NCBI RefSeq assembly: GCF_019059575.1 | Contig: NW_024882960.1 | Coordinates: forward strand, 1 to 64,000 | Length of the DNA stretch: 64,000 nucleotides | Source: Amphibalanus amphitrite | Lineage: Eukaryota; Arthropoda; Thecostraca; Balanomorpha; Balanidae | Reading direction: 5' to 3' | Shown here: positions 4,048 through 62,789 of the stretch, one piece after another | How positions within the stretch are numbered: position 1 is the stretch's first letter | How the letters are laid out: the number at the start of each line of letters is the position of its first letter | Notes under the pieces: generated by a model | What the model was told of the DNA's origin: nothing | The model's input: the letters and a program-made list of their open reading frames with translations, nothing else | Database searches by the model: none | Program-made: the position numbers and the translations under genes

Positions 4048-5234
4048 TTAACCCGCGCGGGGCTGGGGTCTCCAGCCGAACGCGCGGGGCTGGGGGGGGG
4101 GGGTAAATTTTACCCCCCCCCCTGTTATCTCCCGAACTAATGGTCCGATTTGGAAAATTCAAACGCCAATCGAAAGATCTAATCACGAACAACTAAAAAC
4201 ATGTACTTAATTTTAAGTTTGAGGTCAAGGTCAAGGTCAGGTCAAGGGTACAAATTGCAAGTTCCTACAGTATCGGCCTTGCACCGTAGTTGCCGAAGAA
4301 TGGAGTCATGGACTGAGACTGATCGCCCAAAACGTGTTCTTAGGCTACCAAGACAATATTCGTTGCATACAATATCATTCAGAGGTCAAGGTCAAGGTCA
4401 GGTCAGGTCAGGTCAGGTCACCAAAAACAAAATATAGAAAAGGGCATGTGCGACACATGTTTTATGGGTCATTTTACTCATAGAATGCAATAGGCACACT
4501 CAATAAGTGATATGGACCACCTCTGGATGAATTTCAGGTCGAGGTCAGGTCAAGGTCAGGTCAAGTGAGGTCAAATTTTGAAGTTGGTTGTTAAGGCCTA
4601 AAAAGGTGTCTATCTGATGCAGTTTTTCACGGCGAATCGAATGGTGCTATTTTTGTTTCCGTACGAGGTCTAGAACTTCCAAAAAGGTCATTTTTCAAAA
4701 TTTTTGTGTGTCGTGACGTCATACAATTTTGAATAACTCCCACATTTTTGAACCGATTCTTCTAAAACTTGGTATGTAGGTGCACATAGACCACTTCTCT
4801 GACATATATTCCGGTTTTTTCGATACACACAAAATTTTGGATTTTATAGTTATTTTCCCAAAAAAATCATTTTTTTGAAAAAATTTGGGCCAAAATCCAA
4901 AATTTTAAAAAACCGAGATAGCCATTTGATAGACAAAGTAGAATTATGTATATCCTTTTTTGTTACGTCTTGATTCCTTTAAAAATAAAGATGTTAGCGG
5001 CGTTTGAACTTTTGCCGTTTTTTGAGGCGAAAATGGCGAACATGACGTCACTAAAACGTCAATTTCTCAAAAAATTTCCGACGGATTTCGCTCAAATTTT
5101 AAGGGAACGTGTCAAATTGATGTAAGAAAAGGTACTGAAAGTTTGGCGGCCCTGCGCGCCGCCGTTTTTGAGATATTGCAAAAATTCGCGAGGGGGGGTA
5201 AAATTTACCCCCCCCCCAGCCCCGCGCGGGTTAA
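4048..5234. mobile_element. TTAA element A1 (poly-G hairpin family), 1179 bp between target duplications
   Basis: TTAA lies at 4048-4051 and 5231-5234. The ends begin CCCGCGCGGGGCTGGG and are inverted. The left end is complex: the 15-bp motif CGCGCGGGGCTGGGG occurs at 4054-4068 and again, identically, at 4081-4095, followed by G12 (4092-4103), the loop TAAATTTTA and C10. The right end is simple, with one motif copy and a G7/C10 hairpin (5192-5217) whose loop is the reverse complement of the left loop. The interior carries AGGTCA arrays at about 4211-4250, 4382-4420 and 4536-4573, then shares its remaining sequence in inverted orientation with element A2. No transposase is encoded. TTAA duplication and asymmetric ends suggest piggyBac-type mobilisation; that assignment is inference. 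Confidence 0.85.
4081..4122. repeat. Complex-end hairpin of A1
   Basis: An inner copy of the terminal motif runs into a G12 / 9-nt loop / C10 inverted repeat that could form a hairpin. The G run alone could form a quadruplex. The matching hairpin at the other end is at 5192-5217. Confidence 0.8.
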
Positions 5235-7224
5235 CAGACATCTTTTATCTTTTTCGTCTTTTGCCCAAAATAAAAAATACATTTTTAGCAAATAATACAT
5301 TACAGATGTTATGACTTATGAGTACATATAGTCTTGGAAAAAATACACGCACTAGCAAGGCCCCAGTGACTCAATACTGGTGGTACGGACGCAGGGAGGC
5401 GGCCCGCCAACACTTTCGTGTCCATCCTCCTCCTACCCGGCCTCCATTTTAACGAGACGGTTTCCGAAAAAATCGCCGGTGGTTGCGCGCCGGCTCTAGC
5501 AAGTTATGAGTTCATATGCAGGGCATTACGGGTGCGAGAGCGCGACGCCGAGCCTTCACGCGAGCAAATAACAATTTACGCCCACTTCTGATATTGTTAG
5601 GCGGTGGCAGCGCCCGAACAGGTGCGGTTTCGCAGCCGGTCCGTACGCGCCGACAAATTGAACGATAAAAACATGGAAATAACCGTGCGGCGAAATTTTC
5701 CGCCGTATTGAAAGCTATAATGATGTGCCGCCTGAACGGGTATGCTGCTGGCGCACGCCCGGTCGGTGGTGTAAAGTGGAAAAATGGGACGGAGAAAGCG
5801 AGGAAGGAGGGCCGAACCACGCATACACCCTCTCTGGTGAAAGGAGGGCGTGAGACCGGATTTTCATATAAGAACGTGTAAAATGAAAACGTTTTCGAAG
5901 GCGAGAACGGCTTTTGTAAATGTCTAGCACATATATAAACAAAGCGTCAATCCAAGTTGAAAGAAGTGATGAAGCGCGCTTTCGAAGCTTACATCACAGT
6001 ACTTTATACCTAAATATTCACTTACATCCACAAAATAAAAAGAACACAGGCCTTAATGATTATTTATGCAAACATTACGGCGCCCATCGTGTGTGCATTA
6101 CGCGCTCAACCAATGTCCAGCATTCACTGATCATTATTAAAGTCATCACCAGCCACCAGGCAACGTCAGCTGTTAATCCCATTGACGTCCGTCACATTAC
6201 CGACCATCATTTAGAAACCACTTCACCTCACATCAGTCTCGGCGACCACTGACGTCCACCACATCACTGCCGGACTGCCGGACTGGATGGTCTCTCGGCG
6301 GCCATCAGTGGCCGCGGCGAGTGACGTCTGTTTTTGTTGGTCGACCGTTATAAACGAGCTCCTCCGCCCGCCGGCTGCGCGTTCACCATTAGCACACTGC
6401 CATTAGCGATGTTGTGTATCTATTTAACACCATAAAGTACGACCATATCTTCCGCCAAATAAATCAGCGCACGGATAGGAAGCGGTCATCTGGCCGAGGT
6501 GGGGGCCGCAGTATGGCGGACAGCTCCTGGCGATGGATGACGCGCCGCCGCTGGTGTGACCGTCATCAGAATCTCCGGCAGACGAGCCATGAGGGGAGAG
6601 GGGTGATGGGCGGCTCTCGTGGATGCTGCAAGGTACTGGGGTAGGTTTGGAATATGTGCTTCCTGACGATTTATGATAACCGTGCTCAATGTTATAAAAC
6701 AGTAGTTTGATATATTCCATCAGTCCATCCATATATCATTGATTTTTAGCTCGCATATTGGAGTATTTCGAATATGGTTTTAGGATAGTAAGAATGTTGT
6801 TTCCTATTCATTCCTAAACACAGTGGGAAGAAAAGCAATTTTCCTCTCCGTGAGATTATTCCAGCTCAGCTTGCACTCTCGAAATAATTTGTTATTTGGC
6901 GCCTACAAAGCCTAACCGTCTGTTTTCTGGTTCACTTCAATCAACGTCAGATTGTTATCAGTCAAAGCACACTTAACGTCACTATACCTCCCTCATTCAG
7001 TGCACTGGCCCACGGGCTGAGAGGACTGACGACTCAGCCGATTGACGTTTCGTGTTACAGGTGATGTCGTGAGCTGACCACGCAGCTGGCCCAGCGCAGA
7101 GTGAGCCATCAGTAGCGGATACCACTCACGCCAACCGGGCATCAGCAGACCCCGCTCTCTATCCCCGGCTTACGCGCACTCTGGCCTTGAACTCATCATC
7201 TCGCTAGCTTTATGTTGTTTAGCA
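5235..7224. other. Intergenic, no gene recognised
   Basis: No coding signal is supported. A TATAAACGAG word lies at 6349-6358, upstream of GC-rich DNA, and recurs twice elsewhere in the window (see findings). The remainder looks unique. Confidence 0.5.
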
Positions 7225-7382
7225 TCTCTCTCTCTCTCTCTCTCTCTCTCTCTCTCTCTCTCTCTCTCTCTCTCTCTCTCTCTCTCTCTCTCTCTCTCTC
7301 TCTCTCTCTCTCTCTCTCTCTCTCTCTCTCTCTCTCTCTCTCTCTCTCTCTCTCTCGCTCTCTCTCCTCTCTCTCTCTCTAA
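7225..7382 (+). repeat. (CT)n microsatellite, about 155 bp
   Basis: The run of CT dinucleotides is nearly uninterrupted, with a few variant units near its 3' end, and is followed by a pyrimidine-rich tail to about 7520. The arginine/glutamate and leucine/serine frames it creates are artefacts of the repeat. Confidence 0.97.
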
Positions 7383-61314: not shown

Positions 61315-61540
61315 TTATCCCTCGCCCGTATAGGGGGGGGGGTCGAACGAACCACCCCCTCGTTTTTTCGAGAATAACTCGCGTAAAAAGCGGCCGATCG
61401 CGACGAAACTTTCAGGACCCTCGAGTCAATTAATTTGACACCTACTCTGAAAATCTCATATTCCTGACCCAAATGACCTTTGACCTGTGACCTATTTCTT
61501 GAGGCCATGTTTGGCCGGAATCGCGATTCGGCGAGCCGCT
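61315..61540. mobile_element. Truncated TTAA-family element C3
   Basis: TTAT at 61315-61318 precedes CCCTCGCCCGTATA, then G10 / TCGAACGA / a short C run. The next roughly 180 bp match the left part of C1/C2 (AATAACTCGCGTAAAAAGCG onward). Homology stops near 61535 inside the GGCCGGAATCGCGATTCGG region, and sequence of a different repeat follows. The right end is missing. Confidence 0.75.
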
Positions 61541-61892
61541 AATGCGTTCCGTTCACTCCCGCTCCGTTTCGGGTGTTCTGGTCAGTTGTGCTCTCGCTTT
61601 CCCTTCCGCTTGGGGTGTCCTGATCAGCGATCCTCCGTTCCGTTGCAGTTGCTCTGATCAGTGATCACTGATGCCCTCCGTTCTGTTGCGGGTGCTCTGA
61701 TCACTGATCACTGATCATTGACGCTCTCACTCAGCACTTATCACGTGACATGATACGAAGCTACCGCTCCGTTTCGGTGGCCGGCCATGAGGTTGGTGGC
61801 ATCCTTTTATCATTTTTTTGCATCCCGTTCCGTTCCGATATGGATGCCCTGGTTACTGGTTAGTTGCACGCTTTTTATTGCGATATTGCGTA
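61541..61892 (+). repeat. Degenerate GTTCCG / CTGATCA repeat, left part
   Basis: Words such as CTCCGTTCCGTTGC, GGTGCTCTGATCA and CTGATCACTGATCA recur with a period of about 45-50 bp. The same type of sequence resumes after element C2 (about 62790-62930: CGTTCCGTTTGGGGTGCCC), so C2 inserted into this array. Confidence 0.65.
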
Positions 61893-62789
61893 TTATCCCT
61901 CGCATGTGTAGGGGGGGGGTCGGATGGACCCCCCCCCCATGGTTTTTCGCGAATAACTCGCGTAAAAAGCGGCCGATCGCGACGAAACTTTCAGTACCCT
62001 CGCATTGATCAATTTTACACCTACCCTGAAAATTTCATGACCCTGACCCAAATGACCTTTGACCTGTGACCTCTTTTCCGAGACCATGTTTGGCCGTAAT
62101 CGCGATTTCGCGTATGTCGGCTCGCACTAGCCGCGTGTTTGCAAGCTTTTCGTGGTTTCAAACGTTCAAACATGTGATTTGATGTTACTCCCGTGTGTGT
62201 CAAGGTCACCTGAAGGTCAGGTCAGGTCATTGACCTTTGGTGACCTCGGGTGACCTCGGGTCACTTTTTCGAGTTTTACATGTTTCTAGGCTAGTTTTTG
62301 GAGCTGAATTCGAATTTAGCAACCATTTGAACATTTACGAAGTAGTTTTGGTGACTTCGTAACATGTTACGAAGCTGTCAGAGGCGGTTGACACGTACTA
62401 CGAATACCCGTCACGACGCCTACTGGTTGACCTGACCTGACCTGACCCGACCTGGTCTAAATGCTTCAAGACATCATCTGTGATCAAAACTAACACGATA
62501 TTCGTGATCAGCACCCCGAAAAACCCCTTAGCAGCCACACTTTACGACTTTCTAACAGGTCCCGATTTTCCCGACTTTGGGTCATTGACCTGACCTGGAA
62601 GGTCAACCAATGACCTAGGACCTTAAAATTGGGTATCATCGGCTTCCTCTCGTCACGGGCAACAAGCTCGTTTTTTCCGCGAAGCTCTAGCTCGATCAGG
62701 GGCCAAACGGCAAGGGGGGGGGGTCCAACCGACCCCCCCCCCCCCTACACATTAGAAGCTGGAAAACGCCGCACACATGCGAGGGTTAT
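61893..62789. mobile_element. TTAA-family element C2 with TTAT duplication, 889 bp
   Basis: The ends match C1 (CCCTCGCATGTGTA and GCACACATGCGAGGG), and the whole body is nearly identical to C1. Here the flanking tetramer is TTAT on both sides (61893-61896 and 62786-62789). This fixes the element ends at CCC...GGG and shows a true 4-bp duplication rather than conserved TTAA inside the element. The left end is simple. The right end is complex, with ACACAT at 62747-62752 and 62773-62778, 26 bp apart. Confidence 0.9.

Follow-up and report, generated by a model that had tools for sequence, protein, structure and literature searches.

The window analysed here, the first 64,000 nucleotides of contig NW_024882960.1 from Amphibalanus amphitrite (assembly GCF_019059575.1), harbours eight two-ended mobile elements (A1, B, C1, C2, D, E, F1 and F2), whose terminal sequences form six sets, families A to F. 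Close to their ends, the elements carry a palindrome in which a G run and a C run enclose a short loop. A search of both strands for G7-N(6-14)-C6 yielded 81 overlapping matches, whereas 100 shuffles that preserve dinucleotides averaged 0.02. Merging these matches at arms of at least 5 gave 16 separate palindromes, 15 of which are located at ends of the eight elements and one of which belongs to a left-end remnant at 61315. Unbroken palindromes, read from the tip as G7-15, a loop of 9 nt (10 nt in B) and C5-10, are found at 15 of the 16 element ends; at the right (long) end of C2, the palindrome is interrupted by an A within the run. The coordinates are collected in Table 1.

Seven of the eight elements are flanked by a TTAA duplication. 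F2 has TTAT on both flanks, and the remnant at 61315 also begins with TTAT; both are non-canonical duplications. The elements are mobile and insert into one another: the region from 56350 to 59193 is a three-level nest, in which the F-like F0 contains C2, and C2 contains F1. The empty site of F1 in C2 is clean. C1 reads GGGCTCCTAAGATCC and C2 minus F1 reads GGGCTCTTAAGATCC, and C2 minus F1 and one TTAA aligns with C1 over its whole length, with CTAA at the site in C1 and TTAA in C2. The rejoined flanks of C2 within F0 align with the interior of F1; this empty site is unclean, since F1 lacks about 10 bases at the junction, TTAA among them.

Layout of the ends

All eight elements possess one short end, in which 13-14 bp precede the palindrome, and one long end, in which 40-42 bp do so. 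From tip to first G, the short ends measure 13, 13, 13, 13, 14, 13, 14 and 14 bp, and the long ends 40 bp in seven elements (that of C2 counted by eye) and 42 bp in E; the offset between the two ends is 27, 27, 27, 27, 28 and 26 bp in families A to F. The long end consists of the tip repeat, a spacer, a partial copy of the repeat and the palindrome, in this order; in A1, a 16-bp spacer and an 11-bp stretch identical to the inner repeat make up the additional 27 bp. The inner copy matches the short repeat of its own family at 11, 9, 10, 6, 10 and 9 of 11 positions (A to F), compared to 5-6 of 11 for the best match within the spacer. Random 11-mers of 75% GC reach 9 of 11 in 0.08% and 6 of 11 in 9% of cases; the second repeat copy is clear in five of the six families, and the 6 of 11 found in D is attainable by chance. 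Terminal repeats of piggyBac elements measure about 12-19 bp, a length that also fits these elements: the first 13 bp of the two ends agree at 13 of 13 positions in A, B, C and F, at 11 in E and at 10 in D. Tips start with CCC in seven of the eight elements, reading CCCT at both ends of E, F1 and F2 and CCCG in A1, C1 and C2; D has one tip of each kind, and the tip of B is CACG.

The outer arm of the palindrome is G at all 15 unbroken ends, in six families that otherwise differ in their letters. Since the outer G arm (mean length 11.2) averages longer than the inner C arm (7.8; 15 unbroken ends), the outer run may include a short spacer besides the arm. Arm lengths (outer/inner) vary among near-identical copies, with 7/9 and 15/7 in F1 and 9/10 and 13/10 in F2. 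The loop itself is largely palindromic: using the short-end loop, its outer two positions pair in all six families, and in the long-end loop of E both outer positions are unpaired. This symmetry shifts in step across the families, with 12 of 12 outer pairs formed when the short-end loop of E is used (a result reached by 2 of 720 re-dealings) and 10 of 12 when its long-end loop is used (4 of 720); coming from six families only, this is modest evidence. At the short ends, the dyad axis (the loop centre) is found 26-32 bp from the tip, compared to 25-28.5 bp for the midpoint of G run, loop and C run taken together; in the seven long ends measured, the loop centre is located at 54-61 bp. When eight of the 16 ends were folded as single-stranded DNA, the stem formed each time, with z-scores from -1.5 to -6.8; in the case of the A1 short end, 18 of 200 shuffles fold as well.

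The design common to these ends had been recognised in a preliminary description of this DNA and is borne out by all eight elements, 15 of 16 ends being unbroken. Its 4-bp TTAA duplication applies to all elements except F2, and of its hairpin dimensions (G7-G14, 8-10 nt, C6-C15) the layout was retained, but the sizes had to be replaced by those given above. The loops of the two ends, which it had considered usually to match, are identical in A and D when read from the tip and differ at the central base alone in C and F, but agree at no more than 6 of 9 positions in E and 6 of 10 in B. The asymmetry of short and long ends is absent from it.

Kinship among the elements

The terminal sets, put at five or more in the preliminary description, had been regarded as unrelated, a view that was rejected on the basis of the 100 bp beyond the palindrome. 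In this stretch, each of the 15 short-end pairs that can be formed from A1, B, C1, D, E and F1 is more alike than any of 300 shuffles (z 4.0-14.3), which makes the six sets a single lineage at this end. Among the long ends, five of 15 pairs beat all shuffles (A-C, A-D, C-D, D-F and E-F); z is 15.1 for E-F and 1.0 for B-E, for example. Short and long ends show no resemblance to each other in 36 comparisons (largest z 3.5).

Several elements are related in a piecewise manner. The interiors of A1 and C1 are identical at 845 of 888 aligned bases (about 95%), compared to 124 of 191 (65%) and 66 of 96 (69%) in the end stretches; an exchange of end cassettes is one explanation for interiors that are more alike than the ends. 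Element E has the appearance of a mosaic: its long end is close to that of F, while its interior corresponds unit by unit, in unchanged order, to that of B (B0-E0, z 7.7; B1-E1, 4.4; B2-E2, 8.2; B3-E3, 7.9). An inverted pair of a unit of about 190 bp (GTTTTTC..AATAACTT..ATCGAATGATAT..AGGTCA) is present in B (9899-10265), in E (38034-38395) and in the remnant at 31 kb (31458-31819); D has one copy (16357-16547), and a partial copy at 36985-37112 lies outside the listed elements. A profile of one unit also matches the ends of F1, F2 and C1, though more weakly. Since the unit is common to B, D, E and the 31 kb remnant, in both orientations, the elements are not independent of one another.

Proposed mode of transposition

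The layout of the ends suggests that these are probably non-autonomous piggyBac-type elements of about 0.9-1.2 kb, which are moved in trans and whose poly-G palindrome would serve as a dimer site for the transposase in duplex DNA. Titles, passages and selected sections of the literature were available for comparison, and statements on published systems refer to these. In piggyBac of Trichoplusia ni (T. ni), 19-bp repeats are set 3 nt inside the terminal repeat at one end and 31 nt at the other, which gives an offset of 28 (PMC12324416). The longer end is reported to have arisen by a 17-bp insertion and duplication, a dimer of cysteine-rich domains binds bp 17-33, and the wild-type element is only mobile with one short and one long end (PMC7351741). 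The left-end oligonucleotide printed in the latter paper has its dyad at bp 25.0. The offset in the A. amphitrite elements agrees closely with that of piggyBac, and the absolute place of the palindrome roughly.

According to the proposed mechanism, one or more piggyBac-type transposases would be supplied in trans. The palindrome near each end is the predicted dimer site for the cysteine-rich domain of the transposase, and the second repeat copy on the long end would seat a second, inner dimer; pairing of a short with a long end would be obligatory, as it is in wild-type piggyBac. That the dyad persists while its letters change would reflect its being read by a symmetric dimer, and the G arms would be the part that is read by the own domain of this transposase lineage. 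A single-stranded hairpin would not be required, as the protein dimer would read the duplex palindrome. The palindrome is thus likely functional, as had been proposed before, but the folded hairpin or quadruplex suggested for it would not be needed.

A number of observations weigh against this interpretation. A Pfam profile scan of 12 of the 402 open frames of at least 60 residues in the window revealed no transposase gene, and we know of no transposase with a poly-G palindrome as its site. Compared to piggyBac, the dyad is shifted inwards by 1-7 bp, poly-G differs from the piggyBac palindrome sequence TGCGT/ACGCA, and the distance of the dyad from the tip varies by 6 bp (26-32) with the length of the G run, which corresponds to half a helical turn and disfavours a rigid complex. 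Of the eight elements, only E, F1 and F2 carry at both ends the tip motif CC[C/T]T, which is 'generally' present in piggyBac elements (PMC2872659). The inner-copy test is not fully family-specific, because the copy of C also matches the short repeat of B at 9 of 11 positions and that of A matches three other families at 7-8 of 11. D is the weakest case, with terminal repeats agreeing at 10 of 13 positions and an inner copy at 6 of 11, and the loop of the remnant at 61315 pairs at one of four positions. Dyad symmetry would also be compatible with the recognition of a folded hairpin, and the loop symmetry fits a dimer site and a hairpin equally; the dimer site is preferred because of the placing of the palindrome relative to the tip.

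The homopolymer arms could be by-products, that is, a G-rich binding palindrome that has grown by replication slippage or assembly inflation and whose long runs are functionless. This explanation is unlikely, but has to be taken seriously, and it overlaps with the proposed mechanism, which needs the palindrome only. Run lengths differ between close copies, an A lies inside the run of the C2 long end, and five of the 34 G or C runs of at least 7 in the window are located outside the elements. However, the outer arm is G at every unbroken end across six otherwise different families, and slippage alone would not position the runs at 13-14 and 40-42 bp.

It is rather improbable that the palindrome is extruded as a hairpin or cruciform, whose shape rather than sequence is recognised by the transposase. 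The dyad symmetry is retained while the loop letters change, all eight folded ends form the stem, and dyadic structures at such subterminal repeats are put forward in a preprint as possible targets of PGBD5. In the piggyBac and piggyBat structures, however, the palindrome is bound as duplex, according to the passages available. The arm lengths vary among near-identical copies, although a hairpin would tolerate this too, and the offset between the ends is already accounted for by the duplex model. The computed folds do not separate the duplex-dimer, hairpin and quadruplex readings.

It is very unlikely that the elements belong to another TTAA-targeting superfamily, such as Sola3, and resemble piggyBac by convergence. 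No transposase was found in the frames scanned, and the CC[C/T]T tip is absent from one or both ends in five of the eight elements; however, the CCC tip in seven of eight, the repeat length, the palindrome position and the asymmetry resemble piggyBac, and we know of no such end plan in the alternative TTAA-targeting superfamilies. Finally, it is hardly credible that the G runs act as quadruplexes or as barriers to polymerases or forks, so as to shield the ends or assist in copying: the outer arms do span G7-G15, but a C arm stands 9-10 nt from the G arm at all 15 unbroken ends, which favours a stem, an intramolecular quadruplex from one run needs about 15 G by the usual rule, one of the 15 unbroken arms attains G15, for which reason quadruplex protection was rejected as the main story, and the fixed asymmetry and the in-step loop changes would stay unexplained.

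If the elements are indeed moved by a piggyBac-type transposase, one window would hold six natural variants of a piggyBac-type end, in which the placing and symmetry of the palindrome are constant and its letters changed. They would form a ready test set for the co-evolution of cysteine-rich domains and their sites and for the need of piggyBac for a short and a long end. A transposase that reads a poly-G palindrome would bring in a new specificity, which might be useful for genome engineering.

AGGTCA clusters within the elements

The interiors of the elements are rich in AGGTCA, which we take to be a nuclear-receptor half-site. Elements and remnants together cover 10,541 bases and contain AGGTCA or TGACCT 165 times, compared to 35 times for the remaining 53,459 bases; at 15.65 versus 0.65 per kb, the density is 24 times higher inside. 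Seven elements contain 130 sites, compared to a mean of 3.7 and a maximum of 10 in 200 Markov simulations. Examples are the stretches 4227-4696, 9554-10280, 11472-11822, 15840-16577 and 57726-58306.

The sites form clusters spaced about 170 bp apart. In A1, B, D, E and F1 (C1 and F2 were excluded as near copies), the distance between multi-site RGGTCA clusters is 150-200 bp in 15 of 17 intervals, compared to a random mean of 3.3 and with none of 5000 random sets reaching this number; when single-site clusters are retained, 14 of 20 intervals fall in this range (random mean 3.6, 0 of 5000). The cluster gap and the interval window were picked after inspection of the data; with a window of 140-210 bp and gaps from 25 to 65, 14 of 16 or 16 of 17 intervals fall inside. 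Distances between pairs of half-sites peak at 140-200 and 300-380 bp, with a trough at 240-280 bp. In 10 of 14 cases from seven elements, the cluster nearest to the palindrome is located 90-101 bp inside it, the exceptions being the short ends of E (61), D (250), A1 (618) and C1 (620); the front halves of A1 and C1 are without multi-site clusters. The spans from palindrome to palindrome (803, 805, 944, 948, 1098, 1098 and 1104 bp) equal 5, 5, 6, 6, 7, 7 and 7 times 156.8-161.0 bp, a unit that was fitted afterwards.

A recent tandem repeat as source of the period of about 170 bp is disfavoured, as one of 22 within-element unit pairs exceeded z 5 (20 shuffles each, a rough test). The elements may have an old modular origin, since matches to the one-unit profile recur in B, E, the 31 kb remnant, F1, F2 and C1. 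Speculatively, and with little confidence, they could be modular arrays between piggyBac-type ends, in which clusters of receptor-type half-sites one nucleosome length apart would recruit a host receptor-type or anti-silencing factor and keep the element open to a poly-G-reading transposase; new elements would then arise by swaps of long-end cassettes and by gain or loss of whole units. No match for AGGTCA arrays in such elements was present among the entries listed by the literature searches. The periodic clusters pose a separate question, namely whether such elements bring their own chromatin-opening arrays.

Inventory and other features of the window

A stretch at 37449-37509 with CCGGGCGCGGGTTTA looks like a decayed C-type end. 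An open frame of 802 residues (44660-47065, minus strand) matches the reverse transcriptase profile RVT_1 of Pfam (E 2.8e-28) and represents a long interspersed nuclear element; its protein has many close relatives in public contigs, with 446 matches among 8000 scored candidates. A weak match to DDE_3 at 42100-42696 (minus strand; 24.3 bits, Pfam cut-off 28.6) is perhaps a Tc1/mariner-type remnant. A tandem array with a 214-bp unit occupies 60133-61234 (about 4.4 copies in 60133-61070), and another dispersed repeat of 272 bp is found at 27742-28013 and 41480-41751 (95% identical).

Table 1. Mobile elements, remnants and palindromes in the 64-kb window (TSD, target-site duplication; length in bp, minus one copy of the duplication).
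Feature	Position	Strand	Length	Remarks
Element A1	4048..5234	-	1183	TSD TTAA; short end at right
A1 long-end palindrome	4092..4122	+		G12-TAAATTTTA-C10; 40 bp from tip
A1 short-end palindrome	5192..5217	-		13 bp from tip
Element B	9413..10444	+	1028	TSD TTAA; tip CACGCG instead of CCC
B short-end palindrome	9430..9456	+
B long-end palindrome	10373..10400	-
Element C1	10812..11998	+	1183	TSD TTAA; interior close to A1, ends differ
C1 short-end palindrome	10829..10851	+
C1 long-end palindrome	11923..11954	-
Element D	15680..16871	-	1188	TSD TTAA; terminal repeats agree 10/13
D long-end palindrome	15724..15750	+
D short-end palindrome	16827..16854	-
E-like remnant	31295..31879	+		Degenerate long end; second end not seen
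Element E	37859..38899	-	1037	TSD TTAA
E long-end palindrome	37905..37935	+		42 bp from tip
E short-end palindrome	38854..38881	-		14 bp from tip
F0 (F-like remnant), left part	56350..56554	+		Split by C2
Element C2	56555..58629	+	2071 (F1 included)	TSD TTAA; F1 inside
C2 short-end palindrome	56572..56596	+
C2 long-end palindrome	58555..58577	-		Interrupted
Element F1	57585..58477	+	889	TSD TTAA; nested in C2
F1 short-end palindrome	57603..57627	+
F1 long-end palindrome	58403..58433	-
F0, right part	58630..59193	+		Tip GCGAGGGTTAA retained; outer G arm and loop lost (by eye)
Left-end remnant	61315..61892	+		Starts TTATCCCTCGCCC; palindrome 61333-61359
Element F2	61893..62789	+	893	TSD TTAT
F2 short-end palindrome	61911..61938	+
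F2 long-end palindrome	62714..62745	-

Comparison with known systems

In IMG/VR, 18 stretches match TTAACCC-N(6-12)-G6-N(8-14)-C6. None of them is taken as a relative, because a second repeat (9 of 13 matching) before TTAA was found in none of the 18 within up to 6 kb downstream, or less where the stretch ends. The short-end motif gave no match in IMG/VR, and Rfam gave none at gathering thresholds. A piggyBac family with poly-G arms did not turn up in the titles, passages and selected sections searched, and as far as this literature extends, the homopolymer arms, the strict pairing of short and long ends over six families and the periodic half-site clusters have not been seen described.

The preliminary description knew of no named family with this design, a statement that is not supported, since T. 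ni piggyBac shares the plan and subterminal repeats are reported for further families; its hint at piggyBac, on the other hand, is supported by the palindrome position and the asymmetry. Like T. ni piggyBac (IFP2, LE35/RE63), the elements have a TTAA duplication, TTAACCC tips, a 13-bp repeat and a subterminal palindrome at both ends, and one end is longer through an insertion and a partial copy of the repeat, amounting to 28 bp in piggyBac and 26-28 bp here. In contrast, the palindrome of piggyBac reads TGCGT...ACGCA and has no G-run and C-run arms, its dyad is located at bp 25 instead of 26-32, it encodes its transposase, and AGGTCA clusters are not mentioned in the piggyBac passages available.

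The CMITE families of the coral Acropora are miniature inverted-repeat transposable elements with TTAA target sites that are tied to piggyBac, and interiors that are more alike than the ends, as in A1 and C1, are given as their most unusual feature (PMC2872659). They measure about 100 bp, however, and a poly-G palindrome was not found in the passages describing them, by which they were compared. Inner inverted repeats that could in theory form hairpins are described at both ends of human MER75, MER85 and Looper (at one end in MER75B), with no mention of homopolymer arms in these descriptions, on which the comparison is based, and subterminal inverted repeats at both ends are also reported for invertebrate piggyBac-like elements.

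In piggyBat from Myotis lucifugus, an imperfect palindrome with a sequence of its own likewise follows a repeat motif and is bound by paired cysteine-rich domains, and the ends are asymmetric; a preprint describes an asymmetric tetramer. Unlike the elements described here, which have one palindrome per end, piggyBat carries three pairs of motif and palindrome on its left end and none on its right, as far as the available passages go. Its palindrome is unrelated in sequence to that of piggyBac and is read by a differently folded domain, and the letters of the palindrome are therefore free to change within the superfamily. Rather than a new superfamily, the A. amphitrite elements seem to be an uncommon form of an already known type of mobile element.

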